Source of the DNA: a virus
Strand: one strand, 5' to 3'
IMG/VR virus record: IMGVR_UViG_3300025889_000281
Coordinates: 1 to 40,287 of that record
Length of the DNA: 40,287 nucleotides
The first letter of the stretch is position 1. Each line of letters starts with the position of its first letter. This document shows, piece by piece, positions 1,910 to 40,287 of the stretch. The translations under genes were made by a program, and so were the position numbers. The notes beneath the pieces were generated by a model. The model saw only the letters and a list, made by a program, of their open reading frames with translations. It was not told the DNA's origin and made no database searches.

Positions 1910-1963
1910 GATGCTGATCCTTTCGGTTGGTGGTTGGTCTGCGTTATTGCATCCCATGTAGTA

Positions 1964-1991
1964 ATCATACCCCTATGGATTTTATTGTCAA
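1964..1991 (-). promoter_or_regulatory. leftward sigma70 promoter
   Basis: On the minus strand, TTGACA (1991-1986) is followed after 16 bases by TATGAT (1969-1964). It stands in front of the leftward operon and points away from the rightward promoter at 2334-2362, so the hub is divergent. Confidence 0.7.
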
Positions 1992-2011
1992 GACCCCCTC
2001 CCTGTTTTTTC

Positions 2012-2109
2012 ATAGGTACTTTCCCCTATTGACATCTGCCCAGGATTGTGGTGTGTTATAGGGTACTTACAAGCCTTTCCCTCTGCAGTCAATAGGTAGT
2101 TTCCCTAAT
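2012..2109. repeat. repeated ATAGGTAnTTTCCC element in the hub
   Basis: ATAGGTACTTTCCCCTAT at 2012-2029 recurs with three differences, including a one-base shift at its end, at 2092-2109. A partial copy, ATAGGGTACTTA, lies at 2058-2069. The first copy has inverted ends (ATAGG and CCTAT). The spacing is 80 bp between the full copies. They lie between the leftward promoter and the DnaA-box array, where operators or initiator sites would be expected. Confidence 0.5.
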
Positions 2110-2218
2110 GTTGTATAAATGAGACACGGGGGGAGGGGCTACACAGTGATCTAGTGCGTAGAGGGCCCTTAGCAGACACAAAAAAGGGTGAAATAGGGCT
2201 AAAAAGTAAGGAAAAAGC

Positions 2219-2279
2219 TGTGGATAAGTCTGTGGATAACTCTATGATTCCTGTGGATAACTTTGTAATCTGTGGATAA
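2219..2279. other. four tandem DnaA-box-like 9-mers, candidate replication origin
   Basis: TGTGGATAA, the reverse complement of the DnaA consensus TTATCCACA, occurs at 2219-2227, 2231-2239, 2252-2260 and 2271-2279, all in one orientation. Three are followed by C. To the left is a purine-rich A/G stretch and to the right an AT-rich leader. The array lies in the only long non-coding region and between divergent promoters, a usual place for a replication origin. Whether host DnaA or a phage initiator binds them is not shown by the sequence. Confidence 0.65.
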
Positions 2280-2333
2280 CTAGAAAAGGAGAGACAATCT
2301 GTGCATCCGATAGGACTTTTTAGAAGAAAGTAC

Positions 2334-2362
2334 TTGACAAATCCTGAAAAGTATGCTATAAT
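2334..2362 (+). promoter_or_regulatory. consensus sigma70 promoter of the late arm
   Basis: TTGACA (2334-2339), a 17-base spacer and TATAAT (2357-2362) are all perfect, with a TG one base before the -10 (extended -10). The core AAGTATGCTATAATATA is shared with the promoter at 16793-16821. It faces the terminase-capsid genes; transcription should start near 2369. Confidence 0.9.
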
Positions 2363-2369
2363 ATATGCA

Positions 2370-2487
2370 TTGTTAAACCTACTATGCAGGAACTAAGTAC
2401 CACGAATAATTATCATTTTTATATTATTAACCGTATTTGCCTAACTAGCACTGCATAGATATCTAAATAGTAAGGAGAAACACTAAA
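2370..2487 (+). promoter_or_regulatory. structured 5' leader of the terminase transcript
   Basis: The leader is about 118 nt. CTATGCAG (2382-2389) pairs perfectly with CTGCATAG (2451-2458), and inside this an AT-rich hairpin forms from AATAAT (2405-2410) and ATTATT (2423-2429 region). A 24-codon ORF (2384-2458) is present but lacks a ribosome-binding site. The ribosome-binding AAGGAG of the terminase gene (2472-2477) lies just outside the outer stem. Confidence 0.4.
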
Positions 2488-2880
2488 GTGTCCCTTAAAG
2501 AGAAGGATGTTGTTTTGTCTCCCCCTAAAAAGCGAGGTAGACCTAAGAAGGCAGACATAGAGGCTAAGAAAAGCCGTGCCGTGCTAGGTAGACCCCCTGG
2601 AGAGACGGCAAGAATTAAAGAGTTTCACGCTCGTCTGCTTGCTACAAGTGGTGAGAAGGTGATCAATACTATCATTCGTAAAGCTTTGGATGATAATGAC
2701 AAGGATCAGGTTGCTTGTCTAAAGATGTGTGTTGATCGTGTCTTACCCATGTCCTACTTTGAGAAGGAAAAGCAGGCTGGCAGGGGTGGAATTAACATTA
2801 CCATTAGTGGTATCAATGGGACTACTGAGGTATCTGAGTCAGAAGTGATTGACGCTGAGGACGTAGACTATGAATCTTGA
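2488..2880 (+). CDS. terS: putative small terminase subunit
   Basis: The gene starts with GTG, ten bases after AAGGAG. The 130-aa product opens with a basic AT-hook-like segment (Pro-Lys-Lys-Arg-Gly-Arg-Pro-Lys-Lys, about residues 12-20). A helical middle contains Ala-Leu-Asp-Asp-Asn-Asp and a Cys-Val-Asp-Arg-Val-Leu-Pro stretch, as is common in phage small terminases, and the tail is acidic. It overlaps the large terminase gene by 11 nt, the usual order. Small terminases recognise the packaging site and load the motor. The assignment rests on position, size and the DNA-binding look, not on a catalytic motif. Confidence 0.75.
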   Translation: MSLKEKDVVLSPPKKRGRPKKADIEAKKSRAVLGRPPGETARIKEFHARLLATSGEKVINTIIRKALDDNDKDQVACLKMCVDRVLPMSYFEKEKQAGRGGINITISGINGTTEVSESEVIDAEDVDYES

Positions 2881-4132
2881 TATCAAGCTACTACCTTGGC
2901 AGCAAGAGGTGTGGAATAGTAACCATCGGTTTAAGGTTATAGCTGCTGGACGGCGTACTGGTAAGTCTAGGATGGCTGCGTGGGCTCTTATCGTAGAGGC
3001 TTTGCAGGCGGATAAGGGTCATGTCTGGTATGTGGCTCCTACCCAGCAGCAGGCTAGGGACATTATGTGGTCTCAGTTGCTGGAGTTAGCGCATCCTATC
3101 ATTGCTGGTAGTCATGTTAATAATATGCAGATCAAGCTGGTTAATGGTTCACAGATCAGCCTGAAGGGAGCAGATAGGCCAGAGACCATGCGTGGTGTGG
3201 CGTTGAAGTTCCTGGTATTGGACGAGTATGCGGACATCAAGCCGCAGGTGTTTGAGCAGATCTTAAGGCCTGCGCTTGCTGACTTGAAGGGTAAAGCCAT
3301 CTTTATTGGTACACCGAAGGGAAGGAATCACTTCTATGACCTCTATAAGATGGGACAGGCAGGCAAGGAGAAGGATTGGAAATCGTGGCACTTCACATCG
3401 CTCGATAACCCGCTTCTTGACCCAGAGGAGATTGAGGTTGCTAAGGCGTCAATGTCCAGCTTTTCTTTCAGGCAAGAGTTCCTAGCTAGTTTTGAGGCTC
3501 CGCAGTCGGATATCTTTAAGGAAGAGTGGATAAAGATTAAGGATGAAGACCTAGAACCTGATGATGCAACGTATTACATGGCTGTTGACTTGGCTGGTTT
3601 TGAGGCGGTAGCTGCTAATGCAGCAAACAAGAAGAAACATCTAGACAATACGGCTATTGCGATAGTCAAGGTAGGTTCAGATAACAAGTGGTGGGTAGAT
3701 AAGATTGATTATGGCAGGTGGGATATCAAAGAAATCTGCGAGAAGATCCTAAAACATGCCAAGAATTACGATATTAAGGTTATTGGGATAGAAAAAGGTG
3801 CTCTGAAGAGGGCTCTTATGCCTTATTTGAGTGAATTGATGCTCAAAAAGGGCATTTACCCCAGGGTAGAAGAAGTTAACCAAGGCAACAGAAGTAAGAT
3901 TGATAAGGTTGTTGGTGCTTTGCAGGGCAGGTTTGAGCATAAGACCATTACCTTGAAGGAGGACGAGTGGAACAAAGCGTTTATTGATGAGTTACTCAAC
4001 TTTCCTACTACTGGCGTTCACGATGACATGGTGGATGCACTCTCACTCATTTCTGTTATTGCGGTAAACACCTTTGATCTAGAGATAGATGACGAGGAAT
4101 ACGAACCATTAGATGTAATTTCAGCCTACTAA
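2870..4132 (+). CDS. terL: large terminase subunit
   Basis: This is the DNA packaging motor: ATPase plus nuclease that fills the prohead and cuts the concatemer. The 420-aa protein has an adenine-binding Gln motif (Trp-Gln-Gln, residues 10-12), Walker A AAGRRTGKS (25-33), Walker B Leu-Val-Leu-Asp-Glu-Tyr (D118, E119) and a coupling motif Ile-Gly-Thr-Pro-Lys-Gly (146-151). The RNase H-like nuclease half shows D240, E308 and the D385-D386...D389 group. The length is ordinary for a compact terminase. It overlaps terS by 11 nt and is followed 10 nt later by the portal gene. Confidence 0.95.
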   Translation: MNLDIKLLPWQQEVWNSNHRFKVIAAGRRTGKSRMAAWALIVEALQADKGHVWYVAPTQQQARDIMWSQLLELAHPIIAGSHVNNMQIKLVNGSQISLKGADRPETMRGVALKFLVLDEYADIKPQVFEQILRPALADLKGKAIFIGTPKGRNHFYDLYKMGQAGKEKDWKSWHFTSLDNPLLDPEEIEVAKASMSSFSFRQEFLASFEAPQSDIFKEEWIKIKDEDLEPDDATYYMAVDLAGFEAVAANAANKKKHLDNTAIAIVKVGSDNKWWVDKIDYGRWDIKEICEKILKHAKNYDIKVIGIEKGALKRALMPYLSELMLKKGIYPRVEEVNQGNRSKIDKVVGALQGRFEHKTITLKEDEWNKAFIDELLNFPTTGVHDDMVDALSLISVIAVNTFDLEIDDEEYEPLDVISAY

Positions 4133-4142
4133 AGGAACCATT

Positions 4143-6128
4143 ATGGCTTACGAAGAAGAAAACATGCAGTCAGTTGAAGAATACGAAGTAACGGAATCCG
4201 ACAAGGAACTCGTTGAATTCGTAACTACCCACTGTGATCGGTGGCGTGACTGGCGTGATACTAATTTCATGATGCAGTGGGACGAGTATGATCGCCTGTA
4301 CCATGGGATCTGGGCAGACCAGGATAAGACCCGTGACACTGAGCGGGCTAGGATCGTGTCTCCTGCTATCCGTCAGGCTGTGGATAACAAGGTTGCTGAG
4401 ACCCTTGAGGGCATCTCTGGCAACGGTAAGTTCTTTGAGATTGACGATGATGTCATGGACCAGGATAAGTCCGATGTCACCCTGATGCGTACCCTGCTGC
4501 AGGAAGATATGAAGAAGGACAAGGTGATCAAAGAGATTGCCAAGGTGGTAAAGATTGCCGAGATGTTTGGTACTGCAGGCGCAGAGATCCTGGTTAAGAC
4601 CAAGATTGATCGTGCCCCAGCCACCCAAGCAGTCCCTGGGCAGTCCTATGCTGCTGTTGGTGTCATGGAAACCGAGCGTATCTCTATCCCCATCAAAGCT
4701 ATCCATCCCCGTAACTTCCTGATTGACCCCAATGCAGACGATATCATGGACTCTATGGGCGTTGCCGTGGAAGAGTACGTGTCCCTGTATCAGGTAGTCA
4801 AAGGCATCGAAGACGGTATCTATCGTAAATGCAAGATTGAACCCATGTACGATGAGACTGATCTTGAGCCTGACCAGAACACCAGCACGTTCCAGGACGA
4901 TAAAGTCAAGGTTATGCGCTACTACGGTCTGGTTCCGCGTGAGTACCTGGAGCAGCTAGAGAACGATGGCAAGGAAGTGGTTGACCTGTTCCCTGAAGAC
5001 AGTGCTATGGACCGTGTGTCTGACCTCGTAGAAGCTATCGTTGTTATTGCTAATGACCAGCACCTCCTGAAGGCTGAGAAGACCCCGTACATGATGCAGG
5101 ATCGTCCTATCGTAGCATATCGTCCAGAGATCGTCCCAGGGCGTTTCTACGGCGTTGGTACGATTGAGAAGGGCTACAACATGCAGAAGGCCATTGATGC
5201 CCAGCTACGGGCTCATTTGGACTCTCTGGCCCTGACTACTGTGCCTATGATGGGTATTGACGCTACCCGCCTACCACGTGGTATGAAGTTTGAAGTACGC
5301 CCAGGTAAAAACATTCTGACCAATGGTAATCCTTCCGAGATCCTCCAGCCGTTTAAGTTTGGTAACACAGACCCTGCCAACTACGAGACGGCTAAGGGCT
5401 TTGAAGGCATGCTTCTGCAGGCTACTGGTACGCTGGACTCTGCTCAGTTGACCCTAGCAGCAGCAGGTAACCAGGGCGGTGGTGGTATTGGCCTGTCGGT
5501 TGCCATGTCATCCATTGTCAAGAAAAACAAGATGGCCCTGATCAACTTCCAAGAGGACTTCATGATCCCTCTCATTGAGTCGGTTGCCTTCCGTCATATG
5601 CAATTTGACCCTGACCGCTATCCAATGAAGGACTTCAAGTTCGTTCCTGTAGCCTCTATTGGTATGGTTTCGAGGGAGTACGAGCAACAGCAGATGGTTG
5701 GCCTTATGCAGACTCTTGGACCTACATCCCCAATCGTGCCTTTGTTGCTCAAAGGTATTATTGCCTCGTCTAGTCTTGCTAACCGTGAGGAACTGGTGGC
5801 TCAGATGGATCAATTGTCCCAGCCCGATCCCCAGCAAGTTGAGCTTCAGAATGCCTCTCAACAGGCTAATTTGCGGCTTGTACAGGCTCAGGCTGTCGAG
5901 TTGGAGGCTAGGGCCCAGGAGAGTACTGCAAACGCCACAGAGAGCCAAGCAAAGGCTCAGAAGGCCATTGTGGAGGCACAGCTTATGCCTGAGGAAGTCA
6001 AGGCTAAGATTATCCAGGGCCTCTCCTCTAATCTGAAGGAAGACCGTGACTTTGAGAAGCGGGCTAAGATTGCAGAACTGATGCTCAAAGAAGCAGAGAT
6101 TAAAGCAAAAGTTATACCACAACAGTAA
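4143..6128 (+). CDS. portal (head-tail connector) protein
   Basis: The 661-aa protein sits directly after the large terminase and before scaffold and capsid, the classic portal position. It has an acidic N-terminus, a long alpha/beta body with many Pro/Gly turns, and a C-terminal region of about 110 residues rich in Gln, Ala and Glu that looks like a long helix or coiled coil, as in the portal barrel. The dodecameric portal forms the DNA channel and the docking site for the terminase and tail tube. AAAGGAACC precedes the ATG. A DnaA-box-like 9-mer (4379-4387) lies in the coding sequence, probably by chance. Confidence 0.88.
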   Translation: MAYEEENMQSVEEYEVTESDKELVEFVTTHCDRWRDWRDTNFMMQWDEYDRLYHGIWADQDKTRDTERARIVSPAIRQAVDNKVAETLEGISGNGKFFEIDDDVMDQDKSDVTLMRTLLQEDMKKDKVIKEIAKVVKIAEMFGTAGAEILVKTKIDRAPATQAVPGQSYAAVGVMETERISIPIKAIHPRNFLIDPNADDIMDSMGVAVEEYVSLYQVVKGIEDGIYRKCKIEPMYDETDLEPDQNTSTFQDDKVKVMRYYGLVPREYLEQLENDGKEVVDLFPEDSAMDRVSDLVEAIVVIANDQHLLKAEKTPYMMQDRPIVAYRPEIVPGRFYGVGTIEKGYNMQKAIDAQLRAHLDSLALTTVPMMGIDATRLPRGMKFEVRPGKNILTNGNPSEILQPFKFGNTDPANYETAKGFEGMLLQATGTLDSAQLTLAAAGNQGGGGIGLSVAMSSIVKKNKMALINFQEDFMIPLIESVAFRHMQFDPDRYPMKDFKFVPVASIGMVSREYEQQQMVGLMQTLGPTSPIVPLLLKGIIASSSLANREELVAQMDQLSQPDPQQVELQNASQQANLRLVQAQAVELEARAQESTANATESQAKAQKAIVEAQLMPEEVKAKIIQGLSSNLKEDRDFEKRAKIAELMLKEAEIKAKVIPQQ

Positions 6129-8570: not shown

Positions 8571-9938
8571 ATGGCTATTTACCGTGGTGCTGGTGGTCCA
8601 GGAGACGCTACCACCGATGCTGCTAATGAAGCTACCGTAGCCTCTAATAAGGCCACAGAAGCTGCTGCTAGTGCTGCTGCGGCGGCTGCTAGTGCCTCTG
8701 CTGCTGCTTCCTCTGCCTCATCTGCATCCTCTTCTGCAAATTCTGCAACTAGTAGTGCATCTTCTGCTACAAGTTCTGCAAGTTCTGCATCGTCTTCTGC
8801 TTCTTCTGCCTCTTCAAGTGCTACTTCTGCTACTGCCTCCGCAGGCCAAGCAGCTACTTCTGCTGTAAATGCCAGCACTTCTGCAACTGCTGCAGGGGTT
8901 GCTCAGACTGCTGCCGAGGCTGCACAAGCTGCTGCTGAACTAGCACAGACTGGTGCTGAGACTGCAGAGACTAACGCTGAAACTGCACAGGCTGCTGCTG
9001 AAGCTGCCAGAGATGCTGCTTTGTCTGCTCTTGATAACTTTGATGATCGTTATCTTGGTGCAAAAGCTAGTGATCCTACACTAGACAATGATGGCAATGC
9101 ACTGGTATCTGGTGCGTTGTACTTTAATACCACTAGCAATGTAATGAAAGTGTATGACGGCTCTGTATGGCGGGCTGCATATGCTGATGTTTCTGGTGCT
9201 TTACTAGCTGTTAACAATCTTTCTGACCTAACAAGTGTTCCTACAGCTAGGACTAACCTTGGATTAGGTACTGCAGCTACTACTGCTTCTACTGACTATG
9301 CCACGGCTGCTCAGGGTGCATTGGCTGACTCTGCTACCCAGCCTGGAGATCTAGCTACTGTAGCAACTACTGGTGCTTACTCTGATCTGACTGGCGCACC
9401 TACCAATGTATCTAGCTTTACCAATGATGCTGGTTACCTAACCACCGAGACTTATACTGGTACGGTTACTAGCGTTGACATGACCGTGCCTACTGGCTTG
9501 TCTGTCTCTGGTAATCCTGTTACTTCTAGTGGTACTTTGGCTGTTACTTATTCTGCTGGTTATGCTATCCCGACTACTGTTAAGCAAAGTAATTGGGATG
9601 ATGCTTATGTCTTTACTGCTGCTTTTCCAAGTCAGTCTGGTAACTCTGGTAAGTTTTTGACTACTGATGGTTCTAGCCTGTCTTTTGCTACTGTAGATGC
9701 ACTGCCTAGCCAGACTGGTAATAGTGGTAAGTTTCTAACCACGGATGGTACTGATGCAAGCTGGCAGACCATCGCTACTGGTAACACCACTGCTACTGGT
9801 ATTTGGGAGAACGCTAACACCATCTCTGCTGATTACACGGTTACTACTAACTATAATGCTATGTCGGTTGGTCCTATCACTGTAGCTTCTGGTGTTACGG
9901 TGACTATTCCTTCTGGCTCTACTTGGGTGATTATCTAA
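8571..9938 (+). CDS. tail fibre protein with Ala/Ser-rich shaft
   Basis: The 455-aa protein has an extraordinarily simple segment of Ala and Ser (about residues 25-110, many Ser-Ser-Ala units), then Ala/Glu/Thr heptad-like sequence to about 155, suggesting a long trimeric coiled shaft. The distal part has short beta repeats, including a duplicated block with Gln-Ser/Thr-Gly-Asn-Ser-Gly-Lys-Phe-Leu-Thr-Thr-Asp-Gly around residues 350-395. This is usual for receptor-binding fibres. A stop-start overlap (TAATG) couples it to the next tail gene. Confidence 0.82.
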   Translation: MAIYRGAGGPGDATTDAANEATVASNKATEAAASAAAAAASASAAASSASSASSSANSATSSASSATSSASSASSSASSASSSATSATASAGQAATSAVNASTSATAAGVAQTAAEAAQAAAELAQTGAETAETNAETAQAAAEAARDAALSALDNFDDRYLGAKASDPTLDNDGNALVSGALYFNTTSNVMKVYDGSVWRAAYADVSGALLAVNNLSDLTSVPTARTNLGLGTAATTASTDYATAAQGALADSATQPGDLATVATTGAYSDLTGAPTNVSSFTNDAGYLTTETYTGTVTSVDMTVPTGLSVSGNPVTSSGTLAVTYSAGYAIPTTVKQSNWDDAYVFTAAFPSQSGNSGKFLTTDGSSLSFATVDALPSQTGNSGKFLTTDGTDASWQTIATGNTTATGIWENANTISADYTVTTNYNAMSVGPITVASGVTVTIPSGSTWVII

Positions 9939-38626: not shown

Positions 38627-38742
38627 TTGGAGCTCCTCTGAATAGATTTAAATAGTAGTGATAAGAAGTAATAATAATAGTAATCATAAATATTAAATAA
38701 GGAACTAATAAGAAACTATAAAGTATTATTGTAGCACATTTT
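38627..38742 (-). other. AT-rich leader of the replication genes
   Basis: About 116 bases of strongly AT-rich sequence separate the zinc-finger gene from the 63-aa gene. It holds short direct repeats of TAGTA/TAATA type and the -10 box at 38728, so most of it is the 5' leader of the helicase-polymerase message. I see no ORF or stable hairpin. Confidence 0.5.
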
Positions 38743-38756
38743 TTAAGAAAAGTCAA
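38728..38756 (-). promoter_or_regulatory. leftward promoter of replication genes
   Basis: Minus strand: TTGACT (38756-38751), 17 bases, TACAAT (38733-38728), extended TGC. One mismatch in each box. The -35 lies in the last codons of the zinc-finger gene. Confidence 0.75.
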
Positions 38757-39942: not shown

Positions 39943-40175
39943 ACAGGCACCTCGCTTTCTAGTACTCGTTTCTCTAGCCATTTAATGTCTTGCTCCAGGT
40001 TATGAATCTTCGTGGTCAATGCTTTCTTGCAGTCCTCGAGTTCCTGGATCTTCTGCTCCAAGTACATCTCGTCTTCGTCTGCCACTTTGAGTTGCCTACG
40101 TAGTTCGTCACGCTCTGCCACAACGTCACCATAATCGTCAATGTGAACCCAATCCTCGCTATTATACCAGGACAT
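39939..40175 (-). CDS. coiled-coil protein, 78 aa, spans contig join
   Basis: After a Trp/Tyr-rich start (Ser-Trp-Tyr-Asn-Ser-Glu-Asp-Trp) and an Asp-rich loop, the rest is one long coiled coil with heptads (Leu-Glu-Gln-Lys-Ile-Gln-Glu-Leu-Glu). Its first 46 bases are repeated at 1-46. AGGAG precedes the ATG. It may oligomerise or tether a partner; the neighbours are small membrane proteins. No known family. Confidence 0.72.
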   Translation of the reverse strand: MSWYNSEDWVHIDDYGDVVAERDELRRQLKVADEDEMYLEQKIQELEDCKKALTTKIHNLEQDIKWLEKRVLESEVPV

Positions 40176-40287
40176 TATATTCTCCTAAGAATAGATAAAT
40201 GTTAAACCATAAATGAGTGCAAAGAATGCAATAGGGATCGCCAATCCCACGATGGCTTTCAATCAGTCTCCTTATTATTCGATGCTG
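40130..40287. repeat. 158-bp terminal direct repeat, right copy
   Basis: This is the right-hand copy of 1-158 with one synonymous difference at 40161. The last 13 bases (40275-40287) are the 3' end of the 82-aa gene whose full copy lies at 146-394. The genome therefore continues from here into position 159 without a gap, and the unit length is about 40,129 bp. Confidence 0.95.
40185..40262 (-). CDS. 25-aa membrane peptide, repeat copy
   Basis: This is the identical second copy of the TTG-start membrane peptide gene at 56-133, inside the terminal repeat. If the genome is circular these are one gene. Its stop overlaps the AGGAG of the coiled-coil gene. Confidence 0.58.
   Translation of the reverse strand: MKAIVGLAIPIAFFALIYGLTFIYS

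Follow-up and report, generated by a model that had tools for sequence, protein, structure and literature searches.

DnaA is usually treated as the initiator of chromosome and plasmid replication, and T7-type phages are treated as independent of it. Perfect R1-type DnaA boxes bind DnaA with nanomolar affinity, plasmids that carry boxes raise the initiation mass of Escherichia coli, and the datA locus mixes perfect boxes with weaker ones (PMC5835720). DnaA is also a known activator and repressor of transcription, including at the lambda origin (PMC8203912), and the iterons of plasmids are phased (PMC5043065). Among phages, DnaA boxes are already known in the ends of T5, where they are named among the features of the injection stop signal (PMC13250531). 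In the T5 sequence, perfect boxes at 6121 and 6194 lie in the left terminal repeat with divergent pre-early promoters on either side, and another, at 9510, falls within the annotated injection stop signal. The terminal repeats of cobaviruses have a conserved GC-rich 5' end (PMC6775973). Here, we compare these systems with a tandem array of DnaA boxes in an uncultured podophage (IMG/VR record IMGVR_UViG_3300025889_000281, positions 1 to 40,287); "the window" denotes this whole stretch of 40,287 nucleotides.

A tandem DnaA-box array where two gene arms diverge

Bases 1-158 and 40130-40287 of the window are near-identical, with one mismatch, so the window is close to complete and is essentially a whole, circularised phage genome. 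Its rightward arm encodes a putative small terminase, the large terminase (TerL), and portal, head, tail and internal virion proteins; its leftward arm encodes a ribonucleotide reductase, an exonuclease, a weak match to single-stranded DNA-binding proteins, a family A polymerase and a T7-like primase-helicase, in line with the phage's own helicase and polymerase named in the first-pass annotation. Scans against PHROGs and Pfam detected no phage RNA polymerase among the window proteins scanned and recognised no replication initiator gene among them (some small proteins were outside the scan), and tRNA and Rfam scans of the window returned no tRNA and no known RNA family. The best TerL match among cultured phages that covers most of the protein is 29% identical and the best cultured primase-helicase match is 53% identical (Pelagibacter phage HTVC115P); by these comparisons, no cultured phage is close to the window phage. 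Because relatives of its TerL are spread over genome bins of many phyla, assignment through genome collections failed and the host cannot be named.

The array sits in the largest intergenic gap of the window (1958-2487, 530 bp; the next largest is 302 bp), which is bounded by predicted divergent sigma-70 promoters. The features of this region are as follows.

1964 to 1991, minus strand: predicted sigma-70 promoter of the leftward arm (TTGACA-16-TATGAT)
2128 to 2138, plus strand: G-run GGGGGGAGGGG, first half of a conserved core, at a fixed 45-48 bp from the A-run across many relatives
2173 to 2187, plus strand: CAGACACAAAAAAGG, second half of the conserved core, with the same conserved spacing
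2219 to 2227, plus strand: DnaA box 1 (TGTGGATAA), exact match, missing in relative L206
2231 to 2239, plus strand: DnaA box 2, exact match, kept in L206
2252 to 2260, plus strand: DnaA box 3, exact match, kept in L206 and in relative L209
2271 to 2279, plus strand: DnaA box 4, exact match, kept in L206 and L209
2334 to 2362, plus strand: predicted sigma-70 promoter of the rightward packaging and structural arm (TTGACA-17-TATAAT, extended -10)
2488 to 2880, plus strand: putative small terminase (TerS), without a family match and assigned by position; its homologues adjoin TerL in relatives
2870 to 4132, plus strand: large terminase

The earlier description of four perfect tandem boxes in one orientation, placed in the main non-coding region between divergent promoters, was borne out in full. 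The 9-mer TGTGGATAA occurs four times on the plus strand of this gap, with start-to-start spacings of 12, 21 and 19 bp, and reads TTATCCACA on the minus strand, where all four copies match the DnaA box consensus TTWTNCACA. The array lies upstream of the predicted rightward promoter, ending 54 bp from its -35 element, and 66 of 92 relatives have a promoter scoring at least 10/12 at the same place. A fifth copy of the 9-mer (4379-4387) falls within the portal gene. In 100 dinucleotide shuffles of the window, the 9-mer occurred 0.31 times on average and at most twice, so that none reached five, and in a full scan a reversed control pattern matched 8 contigs compared with at least 120 for the real three-box pattern; together, the shuffles and the reversed pattern rule out a chance origin of the array. 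Between the array and the late promoter, a stretch around GTGCATCCGATAGGAC (2299-2315) is well conserved in the relatives L206, L209 and L210.

Conservation and turnover of the array

In L206, whose TerL is 92% identical to that of the window, boxes 2, 3 and 4 are intact, box 1 is missing and the flanks diverge. In L209 (88% TerL identity), whose contig covers only that part of the array, boxes 3 and 4 are intact and the flanks differ. Boxes were better conserved than flanks in these comparisons (Fisher p about 0.001 each, with boxes set against all aligned flanking sequence and gaps scored as differences). Diverged sequence stands in place of the boxes in L210 (87% TerL identity). Presence in related phages, one of the checks proposed in the first-pass annotation, holds for the 92% and 88% relatives and fails for the 87% relative, where the boxes have eroded, and for most of the clade, where they are absent.

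In the viral contigs found with the three-box pattern (at least 120), the commonest box spacings are near 11-12, 21-22 and 33 bp. The pattern requires three boxes on the same strand with starts 10-29 bp apart and sets no preference among spacings within that range. Neighbouring boxes on these contigs were on the same strand in 388 cases versus 34 on opposite strands, a ratio that the pattern partly builds in; because the regions are related, neither these counts nor those of box variants are independent. Among one-mismatch variants, the CACA part (TGTG on the other strand) was nearly intact and position 5 followed the order C >> G, A > T, that is, with G and A above T when the box is read as TTATNCACA. 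The reported box preference of DnaA ranks variants in the same order as the clade does (PMC5835720). Because of the conservation, phasing, orientation and pattern of tolerated variants, the 9-mers are very probably genuine host-DnaA boxes, with host DnaA as the most probable ligand, a point on which the original reading is well supported. The boxes are under selection, and the recurrence of similar clusters in many other lytic phages, often within their repeated genome ends, marks the array as a real, little-studied hook onto a host protein and not a chance pattern.

Relatives of the window share a core made up of a G-run, 45-48 bp, and then a stretch near ACAGAYACAAAAAAG; in the window (2128-2187) it consists of the G-run, 46 bp and ACACAAAAAAG, and it occurs in clade members whether or not they carry DnaA boxes. 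We used this core to draw a sample independent of the boxes. Among its 88 distinct regions, 67 had no exact box, 21 had between 2 and 7, and none had just one, and every box lay on one strand, a strand result that in this sample owes nothing to the three-box pattern. About three quarters of core-bearing relatives are therefore without exact boxes, and the array is not essential to the clade. Of the 9-mers repeated three times in core regions, TGTGGATAA was the most widespread (22 of 99 regions). Most relatives with an array have it just left of the G-run, where the last box starts 16-21 bp ahead of the run; the arrays of the window and L206 are on the opposite, terminase side, right of the core. 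Arrays of the clade hold up to 11 boxes each. On a TerL tree, array state changed at least 12 times on well-supported branches, or 9 times when pattern-selected loci were left out; these counts are approximate because the box pattern had been used to choose part of the tree sample and scoring covered 1000 bp per locus.

Other lineages have different repeats at the place of the array, namely TCTTATATAAGAC (L190, L221, L312), TGTCTCATTTATACAACAT (L271, L382, L397) and TGCACTGCA (L334, L356, L416), which looks as if modules had been exchanged. Fur-box-like inverted repeats (e.g., AATGAGAATCATTCTCATT) occur 45-205 bp left of the G-run in L243, L250, L257, L328 and others. Such sites number 42, where the background predicts 1.4, and are spread over 26 of the 99 core regions; they occur together with DnaA arrays in 20 regions (of 25 and 26); no Fur-box-like site lies left of the window's own core. 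Upstream of TerS in L212, L213, L224 and L234, between the core and the late promoter, there are repeated short palindromes such as GCACTGCGAAGCAGC, which contain the mini-hairpin word GCGAAGC. Tandem DnaA boxes are also present in two phage contigs with packaging genes of another type, L033 (3933-3974) and L087 (5732-5797), and L033 shares with the window a GP88-like gene family (phrog_1392).

Arrays at the genome ends of cultured phages

Podophages in culture that carry the same arrays were recovered with an array-like query; picked in this way, they show that the arrangement exists and not how frequent it is. In five records that hold both repeats around the array, 44 of 48 boxes fall within the direct terminal repeats (phiEap-1, 10/11; VB_Ship_A7, 8/8; ZK1, 12/13; Kp7, 10/11; cp31, 4/5), which make up 0.6-1.3% of these genomes. 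In the records of P483, nasanit, FBKp16 and SEqdws-315, the array is outside any detected repeat; by gene order, in P483 and nasanit it separates the large terminase from the early genes, which is the usual site of T7-type ends. As in the window, TGTGGATAA is on the terminase-coding strand in a single orientation in phiEap-1, VB_Ship_A7, P483, ZK1, nasanit, FBKp16 and Kp7; the boxes of cp31 are on mixed strands, and box spacing is less regular in VB_Ship_A7, P483 and cp31. No array was found in the isolates HTVC115P (first 49 of 55 kb), HTVC112P, Vibrio 1.157.O and SIO1. The premise that a T7-like phage should be free of DnaA sites is not supported, since cultured T7-like and SP6-like podophages carry these arrays, mostly in their terminal repeats. 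Boxes in T7-like ends are apparently undescribed, as we found no published account of DnaA arrays in podophage terminal repeats in the literature searched; what is new here is the modular, recurrent arrangement in this uncultured clade.

We hypothesize that the corresponding region of the window may be a physical genome end. The primase-helicase of cobavirus ICBM1 is about 45% identical to that of the window, and the annotated terminal repeat of ICBM1, which has a GC-rich 5' end, is at the divergence of its replication and structural arms. The window shares this plan, although likening its core to a terminal repeat is purely an analogy; equating the ICBM1 repeat with the window region by alignment failed, as nothing beyond 15 bp aligned. 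Among nine near-complete relatives, five have an end no more than 800 bp from the core (binomial p about 2e-5 versus random ends, with the 800 bp limit chosen after the distances were seen). The contig ends of relatives cluster near the core at no common coordinate, and this clustering could also come from assembly breaks in a hypervariable region. The G-run was rejected as an exact packaging cut because only 1 of 56 contigs starts exactly there.

Readings of the array

Our preferred reading, to which we assign a rough probability of 0.42, is that the array may be a docking site for host DnaA in the genome-end or control region of the phage, used for handling the genome end. The docking region would be the non-coding DNA that adjoins the terminase genes and from which the two gene arms run apart. 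With four perfect boxes that face the same way and are roughly helically phased, host DnaA could bind cooperatively and assemble into a nucleoprotein complex alongside the conserved G-run and A-run. Such a complex would most likely act locally on the genome end, by organising or pausing it as it enters the cell or by helping to replicate or join the terminal region. The boxes, their conservation, orientation and spacing, their recurrence by the core, and the same arrays inside the terminal repeats of cultured podophages can be read directly from sequence; DnaA binding, the physical end in the window region and the role of the complex are inferred.

A DnaA-dependent replication origin, at which DnaA would open nearby DNA and load helicase so that replication runs outward with both arms, is an unlikely reading. 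The phasing of the same-facing boxes, as in bacterial and plasmid origins, favours it, as does the lack of a phage RNA polymerase or recognised initiator among the proteins scanned, and a stretch within the gap (2319-2468) ranks second among the least stable 150-bp segments of the window. The cumulative GC skew has its minimum at the array, as expected of the switch point proposed in the first-pass annotation, and its maximum near 28.5 kb; however, skew tracks the coding strand exactly and is not independent, so we rejected this confounded signal as evidence of an origin. Most relatives are without the boxes and the 87% relative has eroded ones. Arrays of the clade have no flanking AT-rich DNA (adjacent AT content is 0.41-0.56, lower than further out), and the classic oriC layout of an adjacent AT-rich element or DnaA-trios was not found in the clade; the window's own left array flank is A-rich, which is only suggestive but weakens this negative for the window taken alone. 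In cultured phages, moreover, the arrays occupy terminal repeats, and these phages encode an RNA polymerase of their own. A better candidate for a T7-style origin lies elsewhere in the window.

38646 to 38745, minus strand: rival origin candidate, the 100-bp segment of lowest stability in the window; it lies upstream of the primase-helicase and behind a predicted promoter (38756-38728, minus strand)

Similar AT-rich stretches are present in several relatives, not all. Because most relatives are without the array, no AT-rich element flanks it and another candidate exists at 38.6-38.75 kb, we consider a primary DnaA-dependent origin less likely than a docking site. The array could serve as a secondary or end-specific origin.

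Two further uses of DnaA binding are each improbable, and more so than an origin. The array could be a titration decoy, with many phage copies of the boxes soaking up DnaA and stopping new rounds of host replication. Perfect R1-type boxes are nanomolar-affinity sites (PMC5835720), clade arrays have up to 11 boxes, arrays that lie in terminal repeats are doubled, and repeated gain and loss fits a host-directed trait; but a pure decoy needs no single orientation, fixed distance to the core or single place, and all of these are seen. Alternatively, DnaA bound between the divergent promoters could activate or repress one or both arms. The array does lie between two predicted promoters, 54 bp upstream of the rightward -35 element, DnaA has both regulatory activities (PMC8203912), and Fur-box-like sites accompany the arrays of relatives, a pattern that resembles a promoter region under host control; however, the boxes overlap neither promoter, and their distances to each vary between lineages.

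The least probable reading is that the 9-mers only look like DnaA boxes and in fact serve as binding sites for a protein of the phage or as plain repeats, like the short repeats beside T7 ends. Quite different repeats take the place of the array in other lineages, and many small early proteins are without assignment, but the exact DnaA consensus recurs in unrelated phages, no other repeated 9-mer is as widespread in core regions as TGTGGATAA, and its variants follow the tolerance of DnaA. This variant pattern, together with the lack of a recognised initiator among the proteins scanned, also leads us to disfavour the iterons for a phage initiator suggested earlier.

Beyond the docking site proposed for the window, we raise as a doubtful generalisation that tandem sites for host DnaA arose repeatedly, as an exchangeable module, at the genome ends of lytic phages from several families, that DnaA handles the invading end (by pausing entry, joining ends or priming duplication of the terminal repeat), and that sites for Fur or other host regulators serve as an alternative or addition. 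A DnaA module gained and lost at or near the ends of lytic podophages would point to a general way, so far little studied, in which phage DNA makes contact with the replication switch of the host, and because cultured laboratory phages carry the same arrays, the role of DnaA is directly testable.

Among bacterial systems, E. coli oriC and the Bacillus basal unwinding system resemble the array in having same-facing boxes 11-12 bp apart; unlike the clade arrays, they have a flanking AT-rich unwinding element. E. coli datA shares the clustering of high-affinity boxes but has an IHF site, whereas the boxes of the window clade are constrained in orientation and position. Cobaviruses (ICBM1 and SIO1; Zobellviridae) share with the window the lack of an RNA polymerase, a T7-like primase-helicase and two diverging arms; the terminal repeat of ICBM1, however, is without DnaA boxes, and its non-coding region has no sequence similarity to the window. 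T5 likewise has perfect DnaA boxes, some of them between divergent promoters and in its terminal repeat, but these are few and scattered, with no tandem array, and T5 has a 10-kb repeat and enters in two steps. The arrays of Autographiviridae (Eapunavirus phiEap-1, Berlinvirus VB_Ship_A7, Przondovirus cp31 and the Molineuxvirinae ZK1 and Kp7) differ in that these phages have their own RNA polymerase and the arrays are inside recorded terminal repeats, whereas no RNA polymerase was found among the window proteins scanned. They nevertheless match it in their tandem TGTGGATAA copies, mostly on one strand and in non-coding DNA, with box spacing of about 21-22 bp in phiEap-1, ZK1 and Kp7, and, like the window phage, they are lytic podophages with a T7-like primase-helicase.
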